Virus record (IMG/VR): IMGVR_UViG_3300036861_001071
Coordinates: 1 to 25,638 of that record
DNA: 25,638 bases
Source: a virus
Strand: one strand, 5' to 3'
Part shown: positions 468 through 24,516 of the stretch, in pieces
How positions within the stretch are numbered: position 1 is the first letter of the stretch
Layout: every line of letters begins with the position of its first letter
Program-made: the position numbers and the translations under genes
The notes under the pieces: generated by a model
Told to the model about the DNA's origin: nothing
The model's database searches: none
The model's input: the letters and a program-made list of their open reading frames with translations, nothing else

Positions 468-938
468 TTATTGATTTAGTTTAGCGAACCTACAAAAAGC
501 TTTCTTCGCAGCGCGGTCGTAAACGCGGGCGGCGGCTTCTTCAGACTTAAAAAGTCCGAGATATTTTTTCGCACCATAATTCTGAATTTGCGCGGCCCAC
601 ATCCCTTTTGCTTTGTTCCAATATACTCCCTTAAACTGGCTGGTCTTACCTTCCGAGCGACGCCCTTGATTGGCCGAATTCTGACGGACGGTTGCGGGTC
701 TTAAATTACCACGCCGACAGTCGAGAGTATTCCGATTTTTATGATCCACACGAGAACATCCGATCAGAATTTCCCGATGAAGATAGACTGTTTTCCCACG
801 GCCCGCTTGCGTTAGATGCGTGCGTGCTGCATACCAATACCGCCCGCCATTCTTTTTAGCATACCACGTGTAATGACGCAACGCTCGGTCTTTCCAACCG
901 ATAACGGCAAACTTGCCTTGCGTAAGCGGAATGATCAT
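468..938 (-). CDS. HNH endonuclease with C-terminal AP2 domain
   Basis: Probable free-standing homing-type nuclease of 156 aa. The HNH part has the usual order VYLHR (His54), VDHKNRNTLDC (His66, Asn69) and RRGNLR (Asn78), followed by a QNSAN stretch. From about residue 100 to 155 there is an AP2-type DNA-binding fold (QFKGVYW...WAAQI...YLGLFKSEEAAARVYDRAA). This HNH+AP2 pairing is known from phage-borne selfish endonucleases that cut intron-less or intergenic sites. Its ATG directly follows the TAA of the RNA ligase gene (TAAATG), so it is likely cotranscribed with it. It looks complete. Confidence 0.9.
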   Translation of the reverse strand: MIIPLTQGKFAVIGWKDRALRHYTWYAKKNGGRYWYAARTHLTQAGRGKTVYLHREILIGCSRVDHKNRNTLDCRRGNLRPATVRQNSANQGRRSEGKTSQFKGVYWNKAKGMWAAQIQNYGAKKYLGLFKSEEAAARVYDRAAKKAFCRFAKLNQ

Positions 939-1841
939 TTATGACAAAATCCCCAATTCTTTTTTATACCACTCCGGAAATCCGGCTGTCGTCCCTCTGG
1001 CAATCTGCGGCCAGAAGTGTTTGAACAGTGCCTCTTTGACACTATCCGTTTCCTCGCGTTCAATGTCCGCTTTGATTTCTTTCAACAACGGACCGATGTC
1101 CTGTGGCGTATCGGTTATCTGACCGGCTTCCCGCAAATGCTGGATCGCTTTACGCCACCGGGCATCGGTCTTCAATTGAGAAATTAAAAATTCCACCACG
1201 TCGGCTTTTGTGGGGTTGGACTTGCGCCACTCGCCCGCGTGCTTTTCCTTGAACGCGGCGGAGACGAATTTACCGATCAGGATTTTCTTGTCGATCCCGA
1301 AATGGTTGTAGTTTTTGACGACCACGCCTTCGATGTTACAACCCCCGAGGACGGACTCGCGGGCGAAAAAATTCTCAAGACCCGCGGGCTCGCCGTATTC
1401 TCCGTTATGAAAGCAAGGCACGTATTCCAATCCCAGCCGTCGCGCTTCGATATGCTTGTCGGTCACGTCGAGATAAGTCTCCGGGCCGGTCTGCACGTCG
1501 AACAAGATCAAGTGATCAGCGGGCACGCGGGTATACGCGAGACAATTGTGCTTCGGCTTTTGGAGATACTCACAGCGATAGGTCCACCCTACCCGGAGAA
1601 GCCCCTCGTTAAACAACCGCAGCGCCGTAGCGACAGCGTGATTGAACATTTTTTCCGGATCGCTAATGTGAATCTCTTGCCCCTTCGACCGACAGTGCAG
1701 AGCAGTGCCGACCCCGGTAGGCTCAACCCCGAAAGAAAATTGCGAGCCGTCGATTTTTTCTTCGATGACCACTGGGCCGTTAAACAATTCGGCGATGTAT
1801 TTGTGGCCGACCGCATAAATTGATGGATACGATGATAACAT
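939..1841 (-). CDS. RNA ligase (nucleotidyltransferase superfamily)
   Basis: ATP-dependent RNA ligase of 300 aa; such phage enzymes reseal broken RNA, classically tRNAs cut by host defence nucleases. Motif I is EEKIDG with Lys29 as the predicted adenylated residue. Further candidates are CRSKGQ (51-55), RCEYL with Glu91 (motif III), LFDV (113-116), EGVVVKNY (motif IV, 171-178) and IGKFVSAAFKEK (motif V, 189-200). The C-terminal 90 residues are helical, as expected for an Rnl2-like C-domain. It could in principle be a DNA ligase, but the size and the lack of OB-fold or zinc regions favour RNA. The gene has its own promoter-like sequence that ends 6 bases before the ATG. Confidence 0.88.
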   Translation of the reverse strand: MLSSYPSIYAVGHKYIAELFNGPVVIEEKIDGSQFSFGVEPTGVGTALHCRSKGQEIHISDPEKMFNHAVATALRLFNEGLLRVGWTYRCEYLQKPKHNCLAYTRVPADHLILFDVQTGPETYLDVTDKHIEARRLGLEYVPCFHNGEYGEPAGLENFFARESVLGGCNIEGVVVKNYNHFGIDKKILIGKFVSAAFKEKHAGEWRKSNPTKADVVEFLISQLKTDARWRKAIQHLREAGQITDTPQDIGPLLKEIKADIEREETDSVKEALFKHFWPQIARGTTAGFPEWYKKELGILS

Positions 1842-1847
1842 AATTGA

Positions 1848-1876
1848 ACTCTACTTTAAATTTTCCACGTTGTCAA
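1848..1876 (-). promoter_or_regulatory. leaderless-type promoter of RNA ligase gene
   Basis: On the minus strand: TTGACA (1876-1871), 17-bp spacer, TAGAGT (1853-1848), then 6 bases to the ATG at 1841. With the start 7 bases after the -10 box, the transcript would begin on the A of ATG. The -35 is perfect; the -10 keeps TA...T. The -35 overlaps the last codons of the upstream gene. Confidence 0.6.
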
Positions 1877-2070
1877 GCCTGTAAATAATTACAGGGGGTC
1901 GTAATCACTTCGCCGACAATTTCATTGCCGATGATTTCTACTTTTCCACGACAGCGTTTGCAAATTGCCGTAGGCACACCGACCGACGTAAACCAAGTCG
2001 ATAAAAAATGCCCCCGACTTTCGGCGGTGCGCCGGGCGCTTCGCTTTAACTCTTTCATCGGGGTCTTCAT
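1873..2070 (-). CDS. hypothetical protein, 65 aa, with CxxC
   Basis: Short basic protein with a single CKRC motif near residue 38 and one more Cys near the C-terminus, so at most a partial zinc-binding site. Its ATG overlaps the preceding TGA (ATGA), which supports both the gene and the start. Its stop lies within the promoter of the RNA ligase gene. No family recognised. Confidence 0.6.
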   Translation of the reverse strand: MKTPMKELKRSARRTAESRGHFLSTWFTSVGVPTAICKRCRGKVEIIGNEIVGEVITTPCNYLQA

Positions 2071-2309
2071 CTATCTTTGATGCCAGTAAAAGCTACGGGC
2101 TCCGCAGCGAGTGTGGAAAACGGAATCGCGCGCCGGGGTCCGTAGACCTTTCGGAACCGGCCTTTGGTTTTAGTTTTGGCTGGCCACTTAATCGCGTCGT
2201 ATCCCTCCGCAAACTTGTCGTGGTTGTGCCGGGGCGCGTCGCCCTTGCCCGCGCCGGAGTGGCTGGTAAACGCATCGCGGCCTGATTGACTGAATGGTTT
2301 AGCGGGCAT
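2067..2309 (-). CDS. small phage protein with GKGD motif, 80 aa
   Basis: The segment GAGKGDAPRHNHDKFAEGYDAIKW resembles a frequent small phage protein type that carries GKGD-x-R followed by F-x-x-x-Y/W-x-x-I. Its biochemical role is not known. The internal ATG at 2309 is preferred over 2414 because it overlaps the end of the small membrane protein gene by only 11 bases, and the C-terminal stop overlaps the next ATG. The C-terminal half is basic. Confidence 0.65.
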   Translation of the reverse strand: MPAKPFSQSGRDAFTSHSGAGKGDAPRHNHDKFAEGYDAIKWPAKTKTKGRFRKVYGPRRAIPFSTLAAEPVAFTGIKDR

Positions 2310-2481
2310 GACCGTATCCCAATGCGTAGTATATGACGTAGCACCATCCGAAAAAACAATGCGCGATACACCACAAGATTGAATGATTGACCGACCACGA
2401 AATCGTGGCCGCAATCATTGAGCCGAATACTCCGCAACAATAAGACAGCGAAGGCGTGGTTGATTTTGATTTTGTTTCCAT
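2299..2481 (-). CDS. small membrane protein, 60 aa
   Basis: After a polar start (METKSKSTTPS), the protein is almost wholly hydrophobic, with two likely membrane segments (about residues 12-28 and 34-54) rich in Cys, Trp and Tyr. Starts 4 bases after the stop of the deoxyribosyltransferase gene and overlaps the following gene by 11 bases. Function unknown; a small early membrane protein (for instance a superinfection or host-takeover factor) is possible but unproven. Confidence 0.6.
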   Translation of the reverse strand: METKSKSTTPSLSYCCGVFGSMIAATISWSVNHSILWCIAHCFFGWCYVIYYALGYGHAR

Positions 2482-2485
2482 AATT

Positions 2486-2932
2486 TTAGTTCAAGATACT
2501 GATTGCAACCGACAGTGCGTCTTTCAAAAACGCCACTCGAAAACCAATCGCCTCGCGAATCATCGGGTGATCGTGTGGATTGCCTTGCGGCTCCATCACG
2601 CAGATAATCGGCGTCTGGACGGAGTCGGCCCAACCGATTTCCATGACCGTGCCGACCGAGACTGATTTCGCGCCGAGAAAATTCACCAGCAACACGTTGC
2701 AGCGTAACGAGTCGAATCGGTCACGCGTGTAAATCCCGCGGTCACAAGAGAGAACGCAATCCGGATACGAGCCTGTGATGATTTTTTCCGTCGCGAGATA
2801 TTCCTTGCAACGCATCGGCGAGAGTCCACGGATGCCCGCGTCAAACAATTTTGCAACCGCGTGTTGCCGCCACTCAACGCAGTAATCGTAACTGCACCCG
2901 GAGATCGGTCCGGCTAGATAAACCGTTTTCAT
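2486..2932 (-). CDS. nucleoside 2-deoxyribosyltransferase-like protein
   Basis: 148-aa protein of the nucleoside 2-deoxyribosyltransferase / DUF4406 fold. The N-terminus MKTVYLAGPISG is the family's hallmark strand-loop. The later SVGTVMEIGWA (92-102) supplies the nucleotide-binding turn and probable catalytic Glu98, and CNVLLVNF (79-86) is the middle strand. Members swap or hydrolyse the base of (deoxy)nucleosides or nucleotides. In a phage this suits nucleotide salvage or removal of modified or signalling nucleotides, but the substrate cannot be told from sequence. It starts with an ATGA overlap and lies next to a Nudix gene. Confidence 0.85.
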   Translation of the reverse strand: MKTVYLAGPISGCSYDYCVEWRQHAVAKLFDAGIRGLSPMRCKEYLATEKIITGSYPDCVLSCDRGIYTRDRFDSLRCNVLLVNFLGAKSVSVGTVMEIGWADSVQTPIICVMEPQGNPHDHPMIREAIGFRVAFLKDALSVAISILN

Positions 2933-3183
2933 CGCGGGGTTAAAACGACGGTGAACGGTTTAAACGCAGACTTCGGTTTAAAATAAGCGTGGTGAATGCG
3001 ACGCGCGTTAATGATTGAAAAACCATAATCCCATCCGTTGATGCGGACACTCTGGTATAAGGCTCCGACATCCTCAAATCCTTTCCGCTTCAGCGCGGTT
3101 GCTAAGAGGCAATTACATCGACTCAGATAATATCCGCACGTCCGGCGTGCGATTTTGGTTATTCTGATTTTAATTTTGTTCAT
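2929..3183 (-). CDS. hypothetical basic protein, 84 aa
   Basis: Lys/Arg-rich N-terminus (MNKIKIRITKIARRTCGYYL) and a C-terminal GWDYGFSIINARRIHHAYF stretch. No family recognised. The ATG at 3183 overlaps the end of the Nudix gene by 14 bases; a GTG at 3204 would add seven residues. The stop overlaps the ATG of the deoxyribosyltransferase gene (ATGA), so the three genes are probably translated together. Confidence 0.6.
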   Translation of the reverse strand: MNKIKIRITKIARRTCGYYLSRCNCLLATALKRKGFEDVGALYQSVRINGWDYGFSIINARRIHHAYFKPKSAFKPFTVVLTPR

Positions 3184-3697
3184 AATTGATGTGAATGATT
3201 TCACGACCGGGCTCGTTGTGCAACGCCAGCGGGATCAGCCAGCGCAAATTCGGGATGAGGTTGTCCGGGAGACCGTCAACCGACCAGTGAACAACATGCT
3301 CCGGCGTGACGGTGCGCGCAAATCGAAAAGCTTCGTCGAACGCCCGGAGGAAAATAACGTCTGCGCCGCGGAAGACGCATTGTGCGAAGACCTCCCAATC
3401 GCTCGGGTGCGAATTGACTCCGGTTTCCTCTTTGAATTCTCGCGCCATGGCCTGCTCCGGCGTCTCTCCGGATTCGATCTTGCCGCCGACTCCGTTGAAC
3501 TTCCCGGCCTGCCACTCGGGCTTAACCTTTTGGATGAGCACCACGCCGCGACCATGGAATGCAAAGCCGCAGACATATCGAGTCCTCACTACTGCCGGGC
3601 GAGTGATCAATTCCATGATTTCACGGATTGACTTCGGCTCCGGCACCTGCGGCACAATCGTCGGCCCGATAAACCATTTGAGCAATCGCTTGAACAT
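3170..3697 (-). CDS. Nudix hydrolase
   Basis: 175-aa Nudix (MutT-like) pyrophosphohydrolase. The Nudix box is intact at residues 72-94: G-x5-E-x7-REFKEETGV, with the metal-binding Glu cluster REFKEE. It sits after a YVCGFAFHGRGVVLIQK strand pair and before a C-terminal helix. The N-terminal 35 residues form an extra helix not typical of minimal Nudix proteins. Substrates could be oxidised dNTPs, NAD-type dinucleotides or RNA caps; the sequence does not decide. The ATG overlaps the TAA of the preceding gene (TAATG). Confidence 0.92.
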   Translation of the reverse strand: MFKRLLKWFIGPTIVPQVPEPKSIREIMELITRPAVVRTRYVCGFAFHGRGVVLIQKVKPEWQAGKFNGVGGKIESGETPEQAMAREFKEETGVNSHPSDWEVFAQCVFRGADVIFLRAFDEAFRFARTVTPEHVVHWSVDGLPDNLIPNLRWLIPLALHNEPGREIIHINYEQN

Positions 3698-4029
3698 TAT
3701 TCCTTTGTCGGCAGCTTCACCACGTTACCCGCTTTGACTTCTGCGGCGGCGCGCATCTGCGCAACCTGAATGTTGATCTCGCTCGCCCGGCGCAGCTTGA
3801 TCGCTTCCGCGCGCATCAGGGGCTCGTATTCGTTCTTGACCAGCATAAATGCGCCGAGCAGTTCCCCGGAGTGCGCAAGGACCGAGGTCTCGAATTCAGA
3901 CTCAAGCGCGGCAAGCTGTTCAGTGGTGTTTTTGGTAACGACTTTCTGCGCCCGAAGCTCAAAAATCTGAGCTTGGATTGTCATCAGTTCGTTAGCCTTT
4001 TGGACGGTGAGAGTAGGTAGATTTTCCAT
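3697..4029 (-). CDS. hypothetical helical protein, 110 aa
   Basis: Almost entirely helix-forming and Ala/Glu/Leu-rich, with likely coiled-coil stretches around residues 8-50 and 70-100, suggesting an oligomeric structural or regulatory protein. No enzyme motif. First gene after a CACTAT-type promoter (-10 at 4047-4042), so probably the head of the transcript that carries Nudix, deoxyribosyltransferase and downstream genes. Confidence 0.65.
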   Translation of the reverse strand: MENLPTLTVQKANELMTIQAQIFELRAQKVVTKNTTEQLAALESEFETSVLAHSGELLGAFMLVKNEYEPLMRAEAIKLRRASEINIQVAQMRAAAEVKAGNVVKLPTKE

Positions 4030-4041
4030 AATGTTTGCTTA

Positions 4042-4070
4042 ATAGTGTGGGGTCAAGGGTCGAAAAGCAA
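4042..4070 (-). promoter_or_regulatory. CACTAT-type promoter for the Nudix operon
   Basis: Minus strand TTGCTT (4070-4065), 17-bp spacer, CACTATTAAG (-10 hexamer 4047-4042), ATG 12 bases further on. Same -10 block and spacing as eight other sites in the window. The predicted leader is about 5-6 bases. Confidence 0.65.
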
Positions 4071-4078
4071 TTTTATTT

Positions 4079-4261
4079 TTACGACATTGCTCTCCCGTTT
4101 GCTGGATTTGTTTTCAGACCGTAATCCTCCCACAACGGGTGTATGATCTCTCCCCGGCGCAGCGCCAACTCCAATTCCTCCGCTTCTACAAGATCAATTC
4201 GTTTCAAGTCCCGCGCGGCGCGCACGTCATCGATCATTTGTTGAGTAGTCGCCGGTTTCAT
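4079..4261 (-). CDS. hypothetical protein, 60 aa
   Basis: Acidic helical protein (MIDDVRAARDLKRIDLVEAE...) with a Pro/Trp-containing C-terminal tail. The ATG at 4261 overlaps the TGA of the preceding gene (ATGA) and is preferred over an upstream in-frame start at 4297. The gene ends just before the CACTAT-type promoter region, so it is the last gene of the 4079-5379 leftward block. No family recognised. Confidence 0.6.
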   Translation of the reverse strand: MKPATTQQMIDDVRAARDLKRIDLVEAEELELALRRGEIIHPLWEDYGLKTNPANGRAMS

Positions 4262-4575
4262 TTTTTGATGACCACCCACTCGGCACCGTTCCAGCACTTC
4301 CCCTCACTCGTGGAGGTATCAAACCAAAGATGGATTCTCCATTCCGGCGGCGGTTGAGAATCGCTGACGACGATAGAATCTCTGCCGCCGTAGACGTGCT
4401 CCGGGATCGTAATCCAGCGAGTATCCTCCCAATACTCACCGGTATAACTGGGACAATATTTCTGTTCCCACGTCGCGCGTTCCAGCCAGCGCCGTTCGCC
4501 GCCGATGCAACGCGGAAAGAACAAAAACCCGGATCGGATTCGAACACGAGAAAATTGTGCCTGTTTCCATCTCAT
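4258..4575 (-). CDS. hypothetical Trp-rich protein, 105 aa
   Basis: Ten tryptophans in 105 residues, mostly in short beta-prone segments (WLERATWEQKY, WEDTRWITIPEHVYGG, WRIHLWFDTS, CWNGAEWVVI), suggesting a compact beta-rich fold. No recognised domain. The ATG at 4575 lies 4 bases after the upstream stop; an in-frame GTG at 4614 would overlap that gene and is less likely. A/T-rich bases rather than a Shine-Dalgarno precede the start. Confidence 0.6.
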   Translation of the reverse strand: MRWKQAQFSRVRIRSGFLFFPRCIGGERRWLERATWEQKYCPSYTGEYWEDTRWITIPEHVYGGRDSIVVSDSQPPPEWRIHLWFDTSTSEGKCWNGAEWVVIKK

Positions 4576-4579
4576 AAAT

Positions 4580-4768
4580 TTAATCGACCACGACTTCGGT
4601 GTCCTTCGATTCACAGATAAAGGTCGCTTCTTCCTCTGAGATTTGATCGCCGACCCGCGCGTGACGCGAGTAGGTCTTGTTGACAGTGATTGCGTTGCGA
4701 AGGCTTTTAATGCGGTATAACCCGCTACTCCCTAACGCTTTGAGATGAACTGTGATTTTTTTCGTCAT
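4580..4768 (-). CDS. hypothetical protein, 62 aa
   Basis: Small beta-type protein (KKITVHLKAL, GLYRIKSL, ITVNKTYSR, TFICESKDTEVVVD). No family recognised. It follows a 17-base linker that is nearly identical to the linkers before the next two genes upstream, so these genes share an unusual start context. Confidence 0.6.
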   Translation of the reverse strand: MTKKITVHLKALGSSGLYRIKSLRNAITVNKTYSRHARVGDQISEEEATFICESKDTEVVVD

Positions 4769-4785
4769 AAAATTTTGACTGCCAT
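4769..4785 (-). repeat. conserved pre-start linker, copy 1
   Basis: Minus strand ATGGCAGTCAAAATTTT directly between the stop of one gene and the ATG of the next. Core GGCARTCAAAA matches copies at 5080-5103 and 5380-5397. Confidence 0.55.
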
Positions 4786-5079
4786 TTACTTTTTCTCGTA
4801 GAGATCGACCACCAACTGCCCGATGATTTGGATCGCTCCACGCGCCTCGGCGCTAATTTCCTCGCTCGCGAGAATCTTCTTCAGCTTGTCGATAGGGGGC
4901 AACGCCAAATATGCTTCGTGCTTCTGTTGCTCAGCCGCAGCGTTAGCCACTGCTTCGCCCTCCGTAGCTCCTGTGCCGATTCTGCATCGGCCATCCGAGC
5001 AAGTCGCGAAGCATCGCCAGTATCCCGGCGTGGGATTGCCCATGCAATCTTCGTCCGGCTTCATGTAATGTGCGTCCAT
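4786..5079 (-). CDS. hypothetical protein, 97 aa
   Basis: The N-terminal half carries a Cys-containing W-R-C-F-A-T-C...RCRIGTGATEGEAVANAA segment; the GAT-x-x-EA-x-x-NA pattern is common in small phage proteins with a short beta-beta-alpha fold. The C-terminal half is helical and acidic (LKKILASEEISAEARGAI). Function unknown. It is flanked by conserved linkers on both sides. Confidence 0.6.
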   Translation of the reverse strand: MDAHYMKPDEDCMGNPTPGYWRCFATCSDGRCRIGTGATEGEAVANAAAEQQKHEAYLALPPIDKLKKILASEEISAEARGAIQIIGQLVVDLYEKK

Positions 5080-5103
5080 AAAAAATTTTGATTGCCGTTC
5101 TGT
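5080..5103 (-). repeat. conserved pre-start linker, copy 2
   Basis: Minus strand linker with core CGGCAATCAAAATTTTTT ending at the ATG at 5079. Shares GGCARTCAAAA with the copies at 4769 and 5380. Confidence 0.55.
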
Positions 5104-5379
5104 TTACGACCGATCCCCGGTTATTACCCCCAGCGCCCGCTTGGCGCGCCGTTGCTGCGCTTCGATGCTGGCTTTGATGATCTCCGCCACCGCTTCGACG
5201 TAAGTCGGATTATCATTCAAAAACCATTTGACCTTGACGGTAGGATACAACGGCATGACCGCCGGATCGCCGATTTTGCGCTCATACGTCGCGAGATTTC
5301 CATCGATAATACCACACGAAAAACCCAGCCGATTCATCAACTGGATTTGCGATTTGCGGGGAACAATACGTTGTTTCAT
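5104..5379 (-). CDS. hypothetical protein, 91 aa
   Basis: Mixed alpha/beta protein with a basic N-terminus and a C-terminal helix (EAVAEIIKASIEAQQRRAKRAL). The phrase KVKWFLNDNPTYVEAVAEII suggests a small domain, but no family is recognised. Downstream of the third linker copy and upstream of the second. Confidence 0.6.
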   Translation of the reverse strand: MKQRIVPRKSQIQLMNRLGFSCGIIDGNLATYERKIGDPAVMPLYPTVKVKWFLNDNPTYVEAVAEIIKASIEAQQRRAKRALGVITGDRS

Positions 5380-5397
5380 ATAATTTTTGACTGCCGT
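5380..5397 (-). repeat. conserved pre-start linker, copy 3
   Basis: Minus strand ACGGCAGTCAAAAATTAT between a TAG stop and the ATG at 5379. Same core as the other two copies, although the genes around them are unrelated. Confidence 0.55.
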
Positions 5398-5796
5398 CTA
5401 CTCCGCGATTTTCTGATACACCGATTCACCGTTGCTAAACCCGCCGATGCGCCGCATAGCGCACGACTTGAAAGATTTCTCGACGTGCCGTTTGAAGCTG
5501 TCGGCGACGCGCTCGCACCACGCGACTTTGTAGGCGTCGTCCGGATCGAAGGGCGCAAGACAAACCGCCACGCAACCGCAATACTCGGACACCGAGACCT
5601 CGCAATATTGGTTTTGCAGTATCACGTGGTCCTCGCGGTCCATCCAGCGGTTGCAGGATTCAAGCGACGGATACTTCGGCACCAAAACATTGTCGCATAG
5701 GTCTTCGAGAAAAAAATCGAAATCGTCTTCGCCGAATTCCATGTTGAGGTATACGGTTGCTACCGCGTGCCGATGTGTGCTAACTGATCTTCCCAT
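5398..5796 (-). CDS. hypothetical acidic protein, 132 aa
   Basis: Acidic protein with a run of Asp/Glu/Phe around residues 20-33 (EFGEDDFDFFLEDLCDN) and six Cys residues without a clear CxxC pair. The C-terminal half has CERVADSFKRHVEKSFKSC helices. No family recognised; an acidic DNA-mimic role is conceivable but unsupported. It is first behind a strong promoter-like sequence at 5805-5833 and ends in TAG, which shows that TAG works as a stop in this phage. Confidence 0.65.
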   Translation of the reverse strand: MGRSVSTHRHAVATVYLNMEFGEDDFDFFLEDLCDNVLVPKYPSLESCNRWMDREDHVILQNQYCEVSVSEYCGCVAVCLAPFDPDDAYKVAWCERVADSFKRHVEKSFKSCAMRRIGGFSNGESVYQKIAE

Positions 5797-5804
5797 ATGC
5801 GTGT

Positions 5805-5833
5805 AGATTACTCGATTGTTAATTAAAAGTCAA
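5805..5833 (-). promoter_or_regulatory. promoter with very short leader
   Basis: Minus strand TTGACT (5833-5828), 17-bp spacer, TAATCT (5810-5805), 8 bases to the ATG at 5796. The predicted leader is about 2 bases. The -35 lies inside the 3' end of the phosphoribosyltransferase gene. Confidence 0.65.
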
Positions 5834-6290
5834 TAGGGTCAACGGGTTTTTCTGCGGGCTTGTGGCGTGGCAGTTTCGAGGTATATCGCAACAAGTCGGT
5901 TCTCAGTTCGTCGTCACGCCAGAGATACGCCCCAACGCACTCCGCCTTGCCTTCTGTATGCGCGGAGACCATTTCGATGATACGTTCAATCGTTGCGCCG
6001 GTTGAAATGAAATCGTCGAGTATTACGTAGCGAAGCCCAGTCGCCGGACCTTCGACGACGTGGTCCGAATGCCGACTTTCATTACTCTTGCGGACGCAAT
6101 ACAAATACTTGTCCATTGATAACGCCACCGCGCCTGCGATGATGGAGCCCGAGAGCCCGGTAAAGGCGATGGCGTCGAACGCCCCCAAGTCTGCGATGCG
6201 AACGCGGGTTCGCTTAAGGACGGTTCGCCGTTTCGCCGGATCGACGAGAGGCTTGATCCAATTCGCACATTTTAAATCGACGTGATTCAT
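5823..6290 (-). CDS. phosphoribosyltransferase (type I PRT fold)
   Basis: 155-aa protein with the PRPP-binding loop VILDDFISTGAT (residues 89-100) of type I phosphoribosyltransferases, preceded by the AFTGLSGSIIAGAVAL segment (pyrophosphate-loop strand region, about 41-57) and a YLYCVRKS strand. Orotate or purine PRTs are the closest types by motif, but it is shorter than most and the base acceptor is unknown. Likely role: nucleotide or NAD-precursor salvage. The ATG at 6290 overlaps the preceding TGA (ATGA); the longer frame to 6365 would overlap that gene heavily. Confidence 0.85.
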   Translation of the reverse strand: MNHVDLKCANWIKPLVDPAKRRTVLKRTRVRIADLGAFDAIAFTGLSGSIIAGAVALSMDKYLYCVRKSNESRHSDHVVEGPATGLRYVILDDFISTGATIERIIEMVSAHTEGKAECVGAYLWRDDELRTDLLRYTSKLPRHKPAEKPVDPIDF

Positions 6291-6538
6291 ATTTTTGAGA
6301 TTGTAAATTTGACCCACCAGTGACTTGACTGCCCAACGCTGGCACCACCACGAAAAGCTTTCCATACCTCGCCATGATCCAGCACCAGCGCGCCCGGTAA
6401 TTTCTCCCGGACTATGTTCGCGTGCTTTTCAGACGTGCCGCCATTACGATAAAAGAACCCCCAGCGCGCCGTGTAGACCCCGCCCCGGCAGCTAAGAGTG
6501 CTAGCGCAAATCCGTTTCTTGATTTCGCGCTCGCTCAT
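6287..6538 (-). CDS. hypothetical protein, 83 aa
   Basis: Basic N-terminal helix (MSEREIKKRICAS), then aromatic/glycine-rich beta-prone sequence (GGVYTARWGFFYRNGGTS) and a KFTISKI end. The ATG at 6538 overlaps the preceding TGA (ATGA), which decides between several in-frame ATGs. No family recognised. Confidence 0.6.
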   Translation of the reverse strand: MSEREIKKRICASTLSCRGGVYTARWGFFYRNGGTSEKHANIVREKLPGALVLDHGEVWKAFRGGASVGQSSHWWVKFTISKI

Positions 6539-10111: not shown

Positions 10112-10119
10112 ATATCTTA

Positions 10120-10148
10120 ATAGTGCAGCGCCTTACTATCCCATGCAA
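10120..10148 (-). promoter_or_regulatory. CACTAT-type promoter, leftward
   Basis: Minus strand TTGCAT (10148-10143), 17-bp spacer, CACTATTAAG (-10 hexamer 10125-10120), 8 bases to the ATG at 10111. The predicted leader is about 2 bases. Confidence 0.7.
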
Positions 10149-10423: not shown

Positions 10424-10452
10424 TGGCGCGCCGGGGCTGGCGCATGCACTAT
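10424..10452 (+). promoter_or_regulatory. CACTAT-type promoter, rightward
   Basis: TGGCGC (10424-10429), 17-bp spacer, CACTAT (10447-10452), 8 bases to the ATG at 10461. The -35 is identical to that of the tRNA promoter at 19210. Predicted leader about 2 bases. Confidence 0.6.
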
Positions 10453-10460
10453 TTTCGCAG

Positions 10461-13878: not shown

Positions 13879-14009
13879 AGTGTAAATTGCATCCAAAATA
13901 CAAAGGGCTGCGTAAACCGACTTCTACGAGATACGGTTGCGTGTGTTGTTACATCTGGAAAGAGATTCAGTTTGCTCGTCAAAATAACTTGCTTTTTTCT
14001 CGTCGTTAG
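13875..14009 (+). CDS. small Cys-containing phage protein, 44 aa
   Basis: Begins MKCKLHPKYKGLRKPTS and has GCVCCYIW near residue 21. The C-x-x-H-P-x-Y-x-G-x-R-x-P...C-x-C-C layout is a recurring tiny zinc-binding protein type in phages. Ends in TAG, right inside the promoter of the putative ncRNA. Start supported by an ATGA overlap. Confidence 0.75.
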   Translation: MKCKLHPKYKGLRKPTSTRYGCVCCYIWKEIQFARQNNLLFSRR

Positions 14010-14017
14010 CACACTAT
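13989..14017 (+). promoter_or_regulatory. CACTAT-type promoter in front of the non-coding stretch
   Basis: TTGCTT (13989-13994), 17-bp spacer, CACACTATT with hexamer 14012-14017. Predicted start at A14023/A14024. No protein gene follows for 480 bases. Confidence 0.65.
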
Positions 14018-14022
14018 TGGGT

Positions 14023-14500
14023 AACGTCTTTGTGCGGCCTAATTAACCGCCGGACGGAGTTTTAGACGTGATGGTGTAGGTAAGCACATTTGCCACTCAG
14101 GCAAGTAGGTCTAGAAACGGGCACGTTTAAACAATCAGTGTCCGCTTTTTGCGGAATTAAAGAAGCACCGAGCGGATGGGCTTCGCTGAAGCGGTGGCGA
14201 GCACCACCGATAATTAAAGGCTCTGCGGCATCGGGCGACAAACCTCGATGCCAACAATTTTTAATTTGGTATTGGATAACCGAGTAGGGGTCGCGCCTGA
14301 AACGCCCATTACCAATTGTCGGGATAGCGGTCTATAAACCGTGGACCCCGATAGCGAGTTTGATCGACTCGCGAGCGTAGGGTCTGATTGCAACTGATCC
14401 TGCGCTTTATTTTTGAAGTGCGGGGTGTTGTAACAGTAGCATGACCGCAAGCCAATGCGGAACGGTTCGGGAGCATAGCCCGACCCCAAACTTTTTACGG
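14023..14500 (+). ncRNA. putative large structured non-coding RNA
   Basis: About 480 bases without a convincing gene, behind a CACTAT-type promoter. Stems readable by eye: TCCGC/GCGGA (14141-14145/14151-14155); CACCG/CGGTG (14166-14170/14192-14196) enclosing CTTC/GAAG; GGCATCG...CGATGCC (14227-14235/14243-14252); a 10-bp stem with one mismatch (14266-14275/14306-14315); TCGGG/CCCGA (14319-14323/14347-14351) enclosing CGGT/ACCG; GCGAGT/ACTCGC (14354-14359/14367-14372); CCGC/GCGG (14445-14448/14457-14460). The last stem GGTTCGGG/CCCGACC (14464-14485) is followed by TTTTT at 14492-14496, a possible terminator. It contains a GTTTAAAC at 14125. It does not look like tmRNA, RNase P RNA or 6S RNA. 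Large phage RNAs such as GOLLD or ROOL are a possible analogy, not an identification. Confidence 0.6.
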
Positions 14501-14504
14501 CGAT

Positions 14505-14714
14505 ATGGATCGAAAATTTTTAATTCTGCTTATTAACGCGTGGGATTCGGAAATCAATTGTCTGAAGTCCCGGATCGTTGAATTGGAAAAATTCAAAGCG
14601 GAGGCGATTCAGTTGGGCAGTATCCCGCCCGCCGCCGACCCGAAATCTCCCGCGGGCGCGCTGTCGGGATTGATGTCACGTCTTCGATCCCGAAACGGGT
14701 TGCGCAAGGGCTGA
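14505..14714 (+). CDS. hypothetical protein, 69 aa
   Basis: N-terminal helix LILLINAWDSEINCLKSRIV continuing into EKFKAEAI, likely a short coiled-coil, then a Pro/Ala linker and an Arg-rich end (MSRLRSRNGLRKG). No membrane segment long enough for a holin. It starts just after the putative ncRNA, with no clear ribosome site. Its last codons hold the -35 box of the next promoter. Confidence 0.55.
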   Translation: MDRKFLILLINAWDSEINCLKSRIVELEKFKAEAIQLGSIPPAADPKSPAGALSGLMSRLRSRNGLRKG

Positions 14715-14728
14715 AGAACCCACACTAT
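14700..14728 (+). promoter_or_regulatory. CACTAT-type promoter of the membrane/protease cluster
   Basis: TTGCGC (14700-14705), 17-bp spacer, CACACTATTAG (hexamer 14723-14728), 7 bases to the ATG at 14736, so a leader of about 1 base. Same -35 as the portal promoter. Confidence 0.7.
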
Positions 14729-14735
14729 TAGACGT

Positions 14736-16180: not shown

Positions 16181-16314
16181 AGGCGCGAGCGAAAGCGCGG
16201 CGTTTGGTATTGGGTAGGGCAATTGGTTTTAAGGCTCGTGCGAAGCGTGCGCTGCGTCGTGCGTGGTTTACGGTAACTTTTCGATATGGCATGCGACTAC
16301 GACAACGAGTATAA
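16177..16314 (+). CDS. very basic peptide, 45 aa
   Basis: A TTG-started frame overlaps the preceding TGA in exactly the TTGA layout used at 14855 and runs through the only gap in this block, ending 29 bases inside the next gene. It is very rich in Arg and Lys (KARAKARRLVLGRAIGFKAR) with no acidic residue. It could be a nucleic-acid-binding peptide, or a chance frame. Confidence 0.4.
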   Translation: MKARAKARRLVLGRAIGFKARAKRALRRAWFTVTFRYGMRLRQRV

Positions 16315-17185
16315 ATGCGGCGACAGTCTTTACGATCTCACGAAGAAAATTCTCGGTCGTTTAAAAGAATTGGTGGGGTTCGGTCCCGGCAGCGGTGGTG
16401 GTCCTAGTGGCGATGTTACTCTAACGGTTTCCGATGTGGAAATCGGCGCGGTTGAGATCAAAGATTCCTCCACCGATAATCGCGCTACAGTTCGGAATAC
16501 TGATCCAGCGGCTTCTGATTACGGACTTGTCGTTCGTAACATTCCATCCGGCACGCAGGCAGTATCAGGTCCGTTTTTGACTGATGCAGAGTTGAGGGCA
16601 TCAGCAGTTCCGATTTCCGCGGCGTCGCTTCCCCTTCCCGCGGGCGCAGCTACGGAAGCTACTTTATCAACAATGCTAACCCTTGCGGGTTTTCAGGCGA
16701 GAATTAACACTCTCGGACAGAAAACAATGGCGGCGTCTACTCCGGTGGTAATAGCGTCGGATCAATCCGCAATCGCAGTCACGGGTCCATTGACAGACGC
16801 GCAATTGCGTGCAGTGGCGGTTCCGATTTCTGCGGCCAGTCTTCCACTTCCGGCAGGGGCAGCGACACAGGCAACCTTGTTAAACGTAGAGAACTACGTT
16901 AGCGGTTCCAGTGTGGCGTCAGCGCCGACTTCTGCGACGGTAGGAGTTTCATCCGCAGAAGTAGTGGCAAATAATTCCTCACGCAATGCGTTGTATTTAA
17001 CAAATACTTCAGACAATGTTATTTCAATTGCCTTTGATACAGCCGCGGTGTTGAATTCTGGAATTACTTTATTTCCCGGCGATTCTTTTGTGATGCAGAG
17101 ACCGGGTCTTTGGCTGGATGTGGCAGTGCAGGCAATAGCTAGTGCGGCGGGTAGCAATCTTGCAATCCAAGAGTTTACCACATGA
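16286..17185 (+). CDS. tail-type structural protein with duplicated motif
   Basis: 299-aa protein of the type found in phage tails or baseplates. A Gly/Ser-rich linker (32-43) separates a short N-terminal region from a beta-rich body. A 30-residue unit occurs twice (98-127 and 169-198), each starting LTDA and containing VPISAASLPLPAGAAT. The stretch MAASTPVVIASDQSAIAVTG is another phrase common in phage minor structural proteins. The C-terminal domain (about 205-299) looks like a jelly-roll-type surface domain. Upstream, TAACTT lies 6 bases before the ATG, but its -35 is poor. Confidence 0.8.
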   Translation: MACDYDNEYKCGDSLYDLTKKILGRLKELVGFGPGSGGGPSGDVTLTVSDVEIGAVEIKDSSTDNRATVRNTDPAASDYGLVVRNIPSGTQAVSGPFLTDAELRASAVPISAASLPLPAGAATEATLSTMLTLAGFQARINTLGQKTMAASTPVVIASDQSAIAVTGPLTDAQLRAVAVPISAASLPLPAGAATQATLLNVENYVSGSSVASAPTSATVGVSSAEVVANNSSRNALYLTNTSDNVISIAFDTAAVLNSGITLFPGDSFVMQRPGLWLDVAVQAIASAAGSNLAIQEFTT

Positions 17186-19209: not shown

Positions 19210-19238
19210 TGGCGCGAATTGCTCCGAGCTTGCACTAT
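19210..19238 (+). promoter_or_regulatory. CACTAT-type promoter of the tRNA gene
   Basis: TGGCGC (19210-19215), 17-bp spacer, GCACTATTAGG (hexamer 19233-19238). The predicted start (7 bases later) is 19245, within one base of the mature tRNA 5' end. Confidence 0.65.
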
Positions 19239-19243
19239 TAGGT

Positions 19244-19318
19244 AGCGGGATGGCGCAGTGGTAGCGCGGTTGGCTCATAACCAACAGGCCGCAGGTTCGA
19301 TCCCTGTTCCCGCAACCA
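19244..19318 (+). tRNA. tRNA-Met (CAT), initiator-like acceptor end
   Basis: Full cloverleaf. Acceptor 19244-19250 with 19308-19314, D stem GCGC/GCGC, anticodon stem GTTGG/CCAAC with loop CTCATAA (anticodon CAT at 19276-19278), 5-base variable loop, T stem GCAGG/CCTGT with loop TTCGATC, discriminator A and encoded CCA (19316-19318). The 3' end CCCGCAACCA is the same as in bacterial initiator tRNA, and position 1-72 is A-A, unpaired as in initiators. Against that, the D stem has C11-G24 and the anticodon stem only two G-C pairs next to the loop. Could be initiator, elongator Met or lysidine-type Ile. Confidence 0.92.
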
Positions 19319-19391: not shown

Positions 19392-19703
19392 GTGAAAGTA
19401 TTTACATTTTACGATGGGTCGGCGGAGGCTCCCCCGAACCAAGCGAGTCTCATAAAGTTGTGGATGCAGTCGTGGCAGCGGATGGGCTGGGAGCCCCGGC
19501 TATTGACGAGTAAAACAATCGGGGGTCGTCCCCGAGCGTTTGCTTATAGTCCCAGACTCAAGGGAGTTTTTGTTCCGAGCAATGTGATTAACTTCGGGTT
19601 GCGGCGTCGTCCGAAGAACTGGGATTACGTAATTGATTCCGCCATTGTTGTTTTTCACGATTACGATCCGAAACAAGTTTTGAATCATCCCCGATGGCGT
19701 TAA
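19392..19703 (+). CDS. hypothetical protein, 103 aa
   Basis: Begins MKVFTFYDGS and continues LIKLWMQSWQRMGWEPRLLT. This opening (strand, then L-x-x-x-W-x-x-S-W-x-x-x-G-W-E-P) resembles the first Rossmann strand and helix of glycosyltransferase-like phage proteins, but the rest is too short for a full enzyme. GTG start immediately after a U-tract, no ribosome site; the end overlaps the TerL start by 10 bases. Perhaps a truncated or minimal member. Confidence 0.65.
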   Translation: MKVFTFYDGSAEAPPNQASLIKLWMQSWQRMGWEPRLLTSKTIGGRPRAFAYSPRLKGVFVPSNVINFGLRRRPKNWDYVIDSAIVVFHDYDPKQVLNHPRWR

Positions 19704-21607
19704 AGACTCCGGCAGAACAAAATGTCGCTCGCTTAGTCGCAGAGAAAGTTCACAAAGAAAAGTTTCTTGAAGCGGCTCAGGTCATTAATGATTTTTGCAA
19801 ACTGGGGTTGCGTTTAAACGATGACGATCCCAAAAACGTTCTTCCGATTCTTCAGAACTATCTTCACTACCTGTTGAACGAAGGCGGAACTGAAGAAGCG
19901 GCTTCGATCCTTTGGACTCCAAATCAGTTTACCTCCGAGTCCCAGTCGGTAAAAGACATTTGGGATTTGTTCGACCGGGCGAGCATGGGGTTGATCATGG
20001 GCGCGGCGTCTATGTCGAAATCGTATTCGATGGGCGTCCGGCTGATGCTGGAGTGGATTCGCGATCCCGAGTGGACGACGATTAAAGTGGTTGGCCCTAG
20101 CGAAGATCATTTGGAGCAGAATTTATTTTCGCATTTGGTCAGTCTTCACACGTCCGCGAAACTTCCGATGCCGGGTTCGACCGGGGACTTGTTTATTGGG
20201 CTGGACCGGCGAAATCAAATATCGGCGATCCGCGGAGTGGTGATCCCCATCGGGCAAGTAAAGAAGTCTGGCCGCTTGCAAGGAACGAAACGCAAGCCGC
20301 GCCCGAAGTCTCATCCAATTTTTGGCCCTCTGTCGCGGCTGTTTATTTTCATCGACGAATTTGAAAACGTTCCGCAAGGTATTTGGAAAGACATCGACAA
20401 CGTGGTGTCCCAAGTCGAAGATGAAGGCGAGAATAAATCCACGTTCAAAATTTTTGGTGCATACAATCCCAACGATCAGAATAACGAAGTCGGTCAGCGC
20501 GCAAAGCCCGTGTTTGGGTGGGCAAATTTTGATGTTGATTCTCACTACAAGTGGAAGTCGGAGCGCGGTTGGGAAGTGTTGCGGCTCGATGGCGAAAAGT
20601 GCGAGAACGTATTGCAGGGCAAGGTAGTTTTTCCCGGCATGCAGACCCAGTCCGGGCTGGAAACCACGGCGCGCAACAGTGGTGGTCGCCAATCCGCGGG
20701 CTACATGACGATGGGGCGTGGTGCCTATCCGCCGCAGGGCGTGGAACTCACAATAATTCCTCCGGGGATGATTCCGAAATGCCGCGGAGAATTTATTTGG
20801 CTCGATGATCCGAGACCGGTGGGAGCTATCGATCTGGCTCTGGAAGGCGGGGCGAACGCGAGTTACAGTCTGGGAAAACTCGGCATGGCGACGGGAATGA
20901 AGATGGTTCCGTCGCTGGAACATCCAAATGGGCTGACGGTGATGTTCAAGGATCGGGCGAATCAGATAACCCCGCGCTGGGGGCTTCAGGCGGAGCAGCA
21001 GTTCGTGCTCCCGAAAGGCGATACGGTCGCAATGAAAGAGGAAGTCATTCGGGTGACGAAGCGCGCCGGGGTAAAACCAGAATTTTTCGCTTGTGACAGG
21101 ACAGGCCACGGGCAGGGCGTAGCAGATTTGATCAAATACGAATGGTCGTCCGCGATCCATGCGATCAATTATTCCCAGAGTTCCTCGACAGAGAAGATCA
21201 TGGTCGAAGACGCGATGACTTGCGAGGAAGAATATTTTCGAATCGATTCTGAGCTTTGGTTTGCGCTTCGCGCGTGGATGGAGTTCGGATACCTTCTGTT
21301 TTCACCTGCGTTTGATTTGACAAAATTGACTCCGCAACTCACGCAGCGAAAGTTTCGGTCGGTAGGAACAAAGAAAAAAGTTGAATCGAAAAAAGATTAC
21401 ATGAGCCGCGGGTATTCTTCGCCCGACGATGCGGATTCCATCGCTTTGTTGGTCCACGCGGCACGTAAAGGACAGGCTTTGGTGTTGTCGATTCGCGGCG
21501 ATTCGCAGGACAGTGCGGAAGACGCAGGCCCGGAGGGTTGGTTTCGAGAAATGGAGATGCGCGGAGGGGTTTACATCGATGCTTCGAACCGGGGAGATCA
21601 TTTATGA
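19694..21607 (+). CDS. terL: terminase large subunit
   Basis: 637-aa packaging ATPase-nuclease. ATPase part: deviant Walker A GAASMSKS (103-110), Walker B LFIFIDE (216-222), and GAYNPN (256-261) at the motif III position. Nuclease part: Asp380 in GAIDLAL, Asp468 in FACDRTG and the DDADS cluster (578-582), the three acidic sites of the RNase H-like domain. The first 80 residues are a helical extension. It should cut and pump DNA into proheads through the portal encoded downstream. It shares a 10-base overlap with the previous gene and ATGA with the next. Confidence 0.93.
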   Translation: MALKTPAEQNVARLVAEKVHKEKFLEAAQVINDFCKLGLRLNDDDPKNVLPILQNYLHYLLNEGGTEEAASILWTPNQFTSESQSVKDIWDLFDRASMGLIMGAASMSKSYSMGVRLMLEWIRDPEWTTIKVVGPSEDHLEQNLFSHLVSLHTSAKLPMPGSTGDLFIGLDRRNQISAIRGVVIPIGQVKKSGRLQGTKRKPRPKSHPIFGPLSRLFIFIDEFENVPQGIWKDIDNVVSQVEDEGENKSTFKIFGAYNPNDQNNEVGQRAKPVFGWANFDVDSHYKWKSERGWEVLRLDGEKCENVLQGKVVFPGMQTQSGLETTARNSGGRQSAGYMTMGRGAYPPQGVELTIIPPGMIPKCRGEFIWLDDPRPVGAIDLALEGGANASYSLGKLGMATGMKMVPSLEHPNGLTVMFKDRANQITPRWGLQAEQQFVLPKGDTVAMKEEVIRVTKRAGVKPEFFACDRTGHGQGVADLIKYEWSSAIHAINYSQSSSTEKIMVEDAMTCEEEYFRIDSELWFALRAWMEFGYLLFSPAFDLTKLTPQLTQRKFRSVGTKKKVESKKDYMSRGYSSPDDADSIALLVHAARKGQALVLSIRGDSQDSAEDAGPEGWFREMEMRGGVYIDASNRGDHL

Positions 21608-22185: not shown

Positions 22186-22445
22186 TCTGGCGCTGGAGCA
22201 TGCCTTTTTCGTTTTTGGCCGCGATGGCGCGTTCCGCGTGGGCGCGCGTGCGTGGATATGAGATTTTTGCAGATGGAGAAACGGTTATGGATCGTCAAGA
22301 TCAATGTGTCAAATGTGAATTTTTTGATGGAGAACAATGTTCCGTTTGTGGTTGCCTTATAGCGGCAAAAACAGTGTTGGCATTGGAGCAGTGTCCAAAA
22401 AAGAAGTGGCCGCGGATTTGGATTGCGCGGAAGCGCCAAAACTGA
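22182..22445 (+). CDS. small Cys-cluster protein, 87 aa
   Basis: GTG start overlapping the previous TGA. After a basic, Trp-containing N-terminus there is CVKCEFFDGEQCSVCGCLI...EQCPKKKW. The pattern C-x-x-C...C-x-x-C-G-C...K...C-P-x-x-K-W is a known small phage zinc-binding motif found near head genes. Likely a partner or paralogue of the preceding Cys protein. Its last codons carry the portal gene promoter. Confidence 0.75.
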   Translation: MIWRWSMPFSFLAAMARSAWARVRGYEIFADGETVMDRQDQCVKCEFFDGEQCSVCGCLIAAKTVLALEQCPKKKWPRIWIARKRQN

Positions 22446-22451
22446 CACTAT
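22423..22451 (+). promoter_or_regulatory. CACTAT-type promoter of the portal gene
   Basis: TTGCGC (22423-22428), 17-bp spacer, GACACTATTT (hexamer 22446-22451), 13 bases to the ATG at 22465. Same -35 as the promoter at 14700. Confidence 0.6.
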
Positions 22452-22464
22452 TTATCGACTTAGT

Positions 22465-24516
22465 ATGCCCGAAGATTATCGTGATTCAACCGGTGGGTTA
22501 ATTCAGTCCCCGAAGATCAGTTCCAAGGGGGAACCCACTCAAAAATCGATTAAAGACGCCGCAATGGCGAAAGAAGTCGTCAACACCATTATCCAAGCCG
22601 GTAAAAATCGGGCGATTGTCAACTCCCGGATCTTGGCGAAGATCAACGCGGAGCGGCCTTATGATCAGTGCAAACTCGACAATGACGGAGTGGGTTGGCG
22701 GCAGAATTTCACGACCCGACCCCTCGCGTCACTGACGGAAAAGGTTTGGCCCCGGTTTGTCGAGGCGGTGAACGGGCTGAAATACTTCACGGATTCGAAA
22801 CTGCCGGACACTTTTGAAAACGCCACGGAAAAAACGGAAAAATTCCGTGAAGTGATCACGAAAACCATCCGCAACAAAAAAGGCTGGACGACGACTTTGG
22901 AAAATACGGCGTTCGACAATTCTTTGTTCGGCAGCACTGTTTTGGCGCATCTCGACGAGTATAATTTCATGCCGAAACAGTTCCGGTCTGACGAATATTT
23001 TTTAGCGGACGGGACAAAACAAAACGTCATCTACACACAGGTCGCGGTGTTGAAAGAAATGATGCTTCCGCACGAGCTTTACCAGTTGATCAAAGATCGA
23101 GACGCGGCGGAGACGGTCGGATGGGACATTCAGAAAACGGTCGATCAAATTAACAAAGCGGCCCCCTCGCAGATTCGGGATCGGTTGGTCACAGGCGGAA
23201 CGCTGGAAGCGTGGTATCAGAATGCTTTTCGCGAGTTGACTGTCGGCGCGTCGTATATGGCCGGAGCGAGCGTTATCTCCGTTTACACGCTGCTCGCGCG
23301 CGAGGTTACAGGAAAGATTTCTCACTATCGACTCGCGGGCGAGGCGCTCGATTTGATTTTCGAAAAAGATGATCGATTTGACTCCGCGGAAGACTGCCTT
23401 GCGTTTTTCTCTTTTGAAAAGGGGAACGACACTATGGCCGGGAGCAAAGGCATCGGTCGTCAACTTTACGAACTGGCCGGGATGATTGACCGCGCGCGAA
23501 ACGAGGTTGTGGACCGCGCCATCATGTCTGGAAAAACCATCGTGCAGGGAGACGTGAAACGAATTCACACGTTTAAGATGAACGTCATCGGCATGATGGC
23601 AATTGTCCCGAATGGGTGGAACTTTATCGAACAAAAAATCGACGGAAACGTAGAACCGTTCCTGAAACTCGATGCGTATTTTTCCAGCATCGCGGATCAA
23701 TTGGTTGGCGCAGTGTCGGCCCCGAAGATCGAGGGCGAAGCTTTTCGTTCCCCGGTCGCGTGGAATATTTTAGCTCAACGTGAAGAAGAAAATCGTGATA
23801 TTCGGATTGCTCGTTTTCTTGAACAGTTCACCAATCTCATCGCCACGATGCAGAAACGCATTTGTGATTCCGAGAGCGTGGACCCGGATGCAAAAGCCGC
23901 AAGGAAATTATTGCTAGAGCACATGAGTGCGGAGGAAATAAAGGAACTGGCGAATCAGCCGGTTGCTTCTACTGTTCGGGATTTGACTCCGATTCAACGG
24001 CAGATCATTGTGGCGATTGCGACGGAAAAACGAGGGAACCCGTTGTATAATCAGCGTCAGCTTGAAGTGGAGGATTTGACGAATCGAATCGGTGCGGATT
24101 TTGTGAAACGGGTATTGCTGCCGACGAATGATCCTACGGAACAGGCGGAGCAGCAACGGTTGCAGCAAATGGAGTTGGCGGTGATTCTTCAGGGTCAACC
24201 GGTCCCGGTGAGCCCGCGTGACAATCATTTGATCCACTTGAACATGCTGTTGCCTATTGCGGAGCAAGCCGCGGGCGCGATAATGCAGGGTCAGGCGGAA
24301 ACGGCGACGTTGGAACAGCTTTTGGCCCACATTACAGAGCATTACAATATGGCGCTTCAGGCGGGGACGAAGCCCGAGGAATTGAAATCCGTTGCGGCTT
24401 TGGTGAAGAAAGCAAATACGGAAATTGCGAAGCTTAAACAACTCGACGAGCAGGCCGCGCAGTTGCAGCAGCAGTCTCAACAGCATGATGCCGAACAAAT
24501 GTCGGCTACAGTTTAA
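22465..24516 (+). CDS. portal protein (probable)
   Basis: 683-aa protein placed after TerL and before a scaffold-like gene, the usual portal position. Its length fits the large portals of T7/P22-like or crAss-type heads. It has a helical N-terminal part with VGWRQNFTTRPLASLTEKVW (about 86-105), a mixed middle (stem and wing region) and a long C-terminal helix rich in Gln/Glu (AAQLQQQSQQHDAEQM), typical of portal barrels. No enzyme motif. The start at 22465 follows the promoter; the frame is open upstream to 22423. Stop TAA lies within a GTTTAAAC. Confidence 0.78.
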   Translation: MPEDYRDSTGGLIQSPKISSKGEPTQKSIKDAAMAKEVVNTIIQAGKNRAIVNSRILAKINAERPYDQCKLDNDGVGWRQNFTTRPLASLTEKVWPRFVEAVNGLKYFTDSKLPDTFENATEKTEKFREVITKTIRNKKGWTTTLENTAFDNSLFGSTVLAHLDEYNFMPKQFRSDEYFLADGTKQNVIYTQVAVLKEMMLPHELYQLIKDRDAAETVGWDIQKTVDQINKAAPSQIRDRLVTGGTLEAWYQNAFRELTVGASYMAGASVISVYTLLAREVTGKISHYRLAGEALDLIFEKDDRFDSAEDCLAFFSFEKGNDTMAGSKGIGRQLYELAGMIDRARNEVVDRAIMSGKTIVQGDVKRIHTFKMNVIGMMAIVPNGWNFIEQKIDGNVEPFLKLDAYFSSIADQLVGAVSAPKIEGEAFRSPVAWNILAQREEENRDIRIARFLEQFTNLIATMQKRICDSESVDPDAKAARKLLLEHMSAEEIKELANQPVASTVRDLTPIQRQIIVAIATEKRGNPLYNQRQLEVEDLTNRIGADFVKRVLLPTNDPTEQAEQQRLQQMELAVILQGQPVPVSPRDNHLIHLNMLLPIAEQAAGAIMQGQAETATLEQLLAHITEHYNMALQAGTKPEELKSVAALVKKANTEIAKLKQLDEQAAQLQQQSQQHDAEQMSATV

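Follow-up and report, generated by a model that had tools for sequence, protein, structure and literature searches.

A putative structured non-coding RNA with its own promoter and terminator in an uncultivated phage

The locus and its recurrent promoter

The window analysed here, a stretch of 25,638 bases, is the record of an uncultivated virus. Between a small gene ending at position 14009 and an open reading frame starting at 14505 lies a gap of 495 nt (14010–14504) with no convincing gene. This agrees with the gene-free stretch claimed in the initial annotation; its remark that genes otherwise overlap was overstated, as 13 intergenic gaps are longer than 100 nt in a rough gene model, one of them 586 nt. 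The gap is situated in the late region, with the gene for the large terminase subunit (TerL) downstream.

TerL itself (19694–21607) is remote, with 26–32% identity to annotated TerL proteins over part of its length. The 697-residue gene at 22423–24516 probably encodes the portal, judged by position only; its product has no confident match in PHROG, Pfam or the phage collection searched, and that collection appears to contain no isolated relatives of the phage's lineage. A leftward block on the minus strand (468–6365) carries HNH/AP2 endonuclease, RNA ligase, nucleoside deoxyribosyltransferase, NUDIX and phosphoribosyltransferase-like genes. A divergent intergenic region of 586 bp contains a perfect 21-bp inverted repeat (10264–10284/10395–10415; GCTACTAACCCTTAACAGCCC / GGGCTGTTAAGGGTTAGTAGC) flanking 110 AT-rich bases, which is possibly an origin or a regulatory site.

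The promoter in front of the gap was originally described as a CACTAT box ending at 14017. It is indeed there and forms part of a longer significant motif, TTGC-N19-CACTATT, with five exact copies in the window: 13989–14018, 14700–14729 and 22423–22452 on the plus strand, and 10119–10148 and 4041–4070 on the minus strand. Copies with one mismatch are found at 19210–19239, before tRNA-Met, and at 10424–10453; allowing up to one mismatch, the motif occurs seven times in the window against 0.35 expected. Its spacing reads as that of a sigma-type promoter. CACTAT is similar to the T7 core promoter, and a promoter for a T7-like RNA polymerase was considered and set aside, the fixed TTGC 19 nt upstream being a better fit to the sigma type. 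The gap appears to start with the phage's own promoter class, which seems also to serve the tRNA, another structured RNA. An ATG often follows the copies within ∼25 bases, giving very short leaders, and the start predicted from the 19210 promoter falls on or adjoins the first base of tRNA-Met. The recurrence of the promoter gives a way into the transcription of a phage lineage that is otherwise uncharacterised.

Conservation, the coding question and distribution

One relative with the region was found, IMG/VR contig IMGVR_UViG_3300011443_000082 (L082 and L099), with the counterpart of the RNA at L099 2245–2708 (464 nt). Positions 14018–14257 are >90% identical to it: across 240 aligned columns there are 18 substitutions and a single gap of 2 nt, and the 65 bases at 14066–14130 are identical in both phages; the adjacent genes have 72–89% identity. 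Similarity stops after 14257 and returns at the hairpin 14375–14405 and its U-rich run. Four of the promoter copies are kept in the relative, those preceding the RNA and the next gene as well as those of the tRNA and of the gene behind TerL, and there are no exact copies in the loci of more distant relatives. The neighbouring gene downstream of the RNA is not the same in the two phages. Elsewhere, both phages have a structural-looking gene with QSGTWNV-type repeats (16286–17185; L099 3851–5191) which varies in length and repeat number between them, and many IMG/VR contigs have stretches similar to it.

The core region contains an open frame with a TTG start (14090–14284; 65 codons, with 58 codons open in the core), which is open in both phages and could be read as a small protein of 55–65 amino acids. 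Seven of its 12 changes are synonymous, against ∼3 expected, and its amino-acid identity is 93%, below the values for TerL (96%) and the 697-residue protein (97%). Its fourfold sites, however, differ by 10% (3/29), whereas those of five real genes (the 217-residue gene, the protease, the resolvase-like gene, TerL and the 697-residue gene) differ by 34–58%, three to six times more; a sixth comparison, with a short gene fragment, gave 22%. The 70 nt on the 5′ side of the frame are equally conserved despite being closed by stops, the C-termini differ between the phages, the only start is TTG and the product has no Pfam or phage match. The low change at fourfold sites speaks against a coding frame as the main cause of the conservation. 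A conserved protein frame would have told against a structured RNA, as the initial annotation recognized; none explains the conservation, and we regard a small protein as a decidedly slim prospect. The constraint on the core appears to act on nucleotides, not on codons.

The window phage and this relative are the only two members found. Among more distant relatives, in which TerL and the 697-residue protein are ∼60% identical, BLAST gave no convincing match to the RNA and covariance models gave no match; a search with the covariance model R1 covered 1.27 Mb of loci from related phages and 12 further related records, with no additional member. Genes are packed at the syntenic sites in L083 and L086, with no such gap, and nothing similar to the RNA could be detected in a gap of L064. 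DNA searches of phage and plasmid collections gave no real match; pattern searches of viral contigs and one genome collection turned up a chance site in a Devosia genome besides the relative already known, but no third member. Gapped-pattern scans produced chance matches or none; they were incomplete, as one missed the relative's contig, which holds the pattern, and do not prove absence. Because the more distant phages of the lineage lack the RNA, it would be dispensable in the wider group. The RNA thus appears to be narrow in range or to diverge too fast for these searches. Such RNAs may be confined to narrow phage groups and would then escape Rfam-style mining, which needs many members.

Fold, substitutions and transcript ends

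Compared with shuffled sequences, 14018–14500 has a fold z-score of −3.5 on the plus strand and −2.1 on the minus strand, and the strongest sliding-window signal in 12.8–16.5 kb is at 14251–14500 on the plus strand (z of about −4.6). The stems named at the outset were found: TCGGG/CCCGA around CGGT/ACCG at 14317–14353, GCGAGT/ACTCGC at 14354–14372 and GGCATCG/CGATGCC at 14227–14252. The local hairpin region 14317–14375 has a z-score of −4.3. The core consensus was derived with RNAalifold from two sequences (the window and L099) and consists of P1 with P2 to P5, then P6 (Table 1). All of the modelled pairs, P6 included, are intact in both sequences (70/70).

Table 1. Features of the proposed RNA and its surroundings (all on the plus strand)
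Feature	Position	Remarks
Promoter TTGC-N19-CACTATT	13989–14018	Exact motif, 5′ of the RNA
Proposed non-coding transcript, ∼395 nt	∼14021–14024 to ∼14414	Ends predicted from the promoter and the conserved terminator
Core domain	14021–14226	Closed by long-range P1 (14021–14023 and 14026–14031 with 14216–14221 and 14224–14226)
P2 hairpin	14032–14055	Loop holds four substitutions; 2-nt deletion past P2 in the relative
P3	14061–14131	Large internal loop and tip hairpin 14088–14094/14100–14106
P4	14136–14188	P4a 14141–14145/14151–14155; P4b 14162–14169/14178–14184
P5 hairpin	14192–14209	CGGTGG/CCACCG
P6 hairpin	14227–14252	GGCATCGGG/CCTCGATGCC; pairing survives two one-sided changes; 5-nt spacer, then T5
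Variable middle	14253–14374	Strong local hairpins 14317–14353 and 14354–14372; sequence unrelated in the relative
Intrinsic-terminator-like hairpin	14375–14414	14375–14384/14396–14405 followed by TTTATTTTT; conserved
Open reading frame immediately 3′ of the RNA	14505–14714	Followed by a small membrane protein and a protease

When the window sequence is folded by itself and without constraints, the best structure lacks P1, and P1 and P3 are the least certain helices because the best single-sequence folds of the two RNAs conflict there. The middle is not recognizable as a diverged homologue: its alignment to the middle of the relative's RNA is no better than shuffled (p = 0.14). In the relative this part (L099 2480–2671) is longer, with a run of 11 T after a hairpin that is a possible alternative transcript end; a tRNA remnant there was considered and is unsupported, ARAGORN and Rfam finding none.

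Substitutions were tested on structures predicted from the window alone to avoid circularity. They break 1–2 of the predicted pairs, against 5.7–6.7 expected (P = 0.0006–0.006). There are two compensatory double changes, which are in separate hairpins: G-C to A-U at 14144/14152 in P4a and A-U to C-G at 14379/14401 in the terminator hairpin. Further changes that keep a pair are U-G to C-G (at 14378/14402 in the terminator hairpin), G-U to A-U, G-U to G-C and U-A to U-G. Shuffle controls for pair counts cannot discriminate with two sequences. The stems thus show covariation in the two double changes, as the initial annotation would require, but it is thin, two members being too few to claim it formally. 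There is good support for a structured phage RNA that has its own promoter: the promoter recurs, conservation is at the nucleotide level, the substitutions respect pairing and the fold z-scores are clearly negative in two phages.

The 65-bp perfectly conserved stretch, the many inverted repeats and the location ahead of TerL in the late region would also suit a DNA-level element (a replication origin, or a packaging or recombination site) in which the hairpins matter only as DNA. Several substitutions, however, keep their pairs only via G-U, which is valid in RNA; the region is placed exactly behind a recurrent promoter, and it is absent from relatives with the same TerL. We consider an element of this kind very unlikely.

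The transcript had been proposed to end at a stem plus TTTTT (14467–14496, the T-run being 14492–14496). This end was rejected, as the stem is absent in the relative and lies 8 nt from the T-run. The conserved parts are 14018–14257 and the terminator-like hairpin with its U-tract, and the likely transcript is therefore ∼14021–14414; the RNA most likely ends at ∼14414 rather than 14496. The hairpin and U-tract have fold z-scores of −3.6 and −4.0, and the hairpin loop (TTGCAACTGATCC) is the same in the relative. With the revised ends the fold z-score of the RNA improves to −4.71, with none of 100 shuffles equally good, and the counterpart in the relative has a z-score of −4.06. P6 is a possible but weak terminator, its spacer measuring 5 nt and its U-run being short. 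At ∼395 nt in the window and ∼465 nt in the relative, the description of the RNA as large is fair.

These ends bear on whether the RNA acts in cis as a leader for the genes that follow (14505–14714, the small membrane protein and the protease), which it directly precedes on the same strand. The terminator and a new promoter (14700–14729) lie between the RNA and the protease genes, however, and the next gene downstream is not shared with the relative. A leader thus seems to us a poor candidate, with little chance of being correct. A conserved terminator of its own and the second promoter copy behind it speak for the RNA as a separate unit.

Possible role and comparison with known RNAs

The separate promoter, the conserved terminator and the changing downstream gene argue for an independent trans-acting RNA. 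We think it somewhat probable, on balance, that the phage transcribes a stable non-coding trans-acting RNA of ∼395 nt from the promoter at 13989–14018 to the terminator at 14375–14414. The non-coding conservation, the promoter class, the conserved terminator and the pairing-respecting substitutions were computed, and we infer transcription, action in trans, the binding of a partner and the timing. The 5′ half of the RNA would form a rigid multi-branched core, with P1 closing P2 to P5 and then P6, and the fast-evolving arm between the core and the terminator hairpin would be a spacer or decoration. The RNA would act in trans during infection, and the invariant internal loop of P3 (14066–14130) is the leading candidate surface for binding the ribosome, a protein or some other RNA. 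Antisense matching within the two phages pointed to no target or partner.

The free-standing promoter and terminator and the long single-stranded parts of the core that do not vary would also fit a base-pairing regulatory sRNA, with loops that bind mRNAs of the phage or its host and alter their translation or decay; regulatory sRNAs have been reported from other phages (PMC12197685). Conserved antisense matches in the two phages, however, amount to two orthologous 9-mers, against a rough ∼2–3 by chance, and 395 nt with 70 core pairs is large compared with a typical sRNA. Such an sRNA is unlikely, in our judgement, but deserves some weight.

An Rfam 15 covariance-model search of the window found no family near its gathering cutoff, even with permissive filters and E = 10; the sole permissive match was sau-5971, with 15.2 bits against a cutoff of 90. 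The relative's RNA likewise gave nothing near the cutoff in Rfam 15, so the RNA is new as far as this release goes. As the initial annotation noted, it does not match tmRNA, RNase P or 6S: no Rfam model matched and ARAGORN detected no tmRNA, reporting only tRNA-Met (19244–19318) in the window and nothing at the relative's RNA. It is probable that this is a new and narrowly distributed structured phage non-coding RNA, in no known family by the tests run, and the best reading is of a functional orphan that acts in trans. There are few large structured RNAs from phages, and a compact case in which the ends are defined, the core is conserved and one arm varies would be tractable.

The core of the P2 loop is self-complementary in both phages (AAUU in the window, GAUC in the relative), and the terminator loop has UUGCAA in both. 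Short loop palindromes are frequent by chance. One may speculate that the RNA represents a new class, unrelated in sequence to GOLLD, ROOL and OLE and about half the size of GOLLD, that self-associates by symmetric kissing loops into an RNA-only oligomer like theirs; we regard this as very improbable.

Like the pRNA of phi29, the RNA is a structured phage RNA upstream of packaging genes. The phi29 pRNA is ∼174 nt in length; the RNA described here is much longer and the Rfam pRNA model has no match in the window. A general packaging role like that of pRNA is unlikely, because phages with a homologous TerL do without the RNA.

The suggested kinship with GOLLD and ROOL is unsupported, as neither model matches and the phage has a single tRNA, 5 kb away. 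ROOL is also a structured phage non-coding RNA with a variable stretch inside (PMC12286853), but the present RNA is smaller and lies in a phage with one tRNA only, 5 kb off. In GOLLD the conserved region is at the 3′ end and many members are >800 nt (PMC12286853), whereas here the conserved part is 5′, the length is ∼395 nt and there is no tRNA island. Both RNAs are nevertheless phage-encoded, non-coding and multi-branched, with one well conserved and one poorly conserved region, and the window phage carries tRNA-Met elsewhere in its genome.
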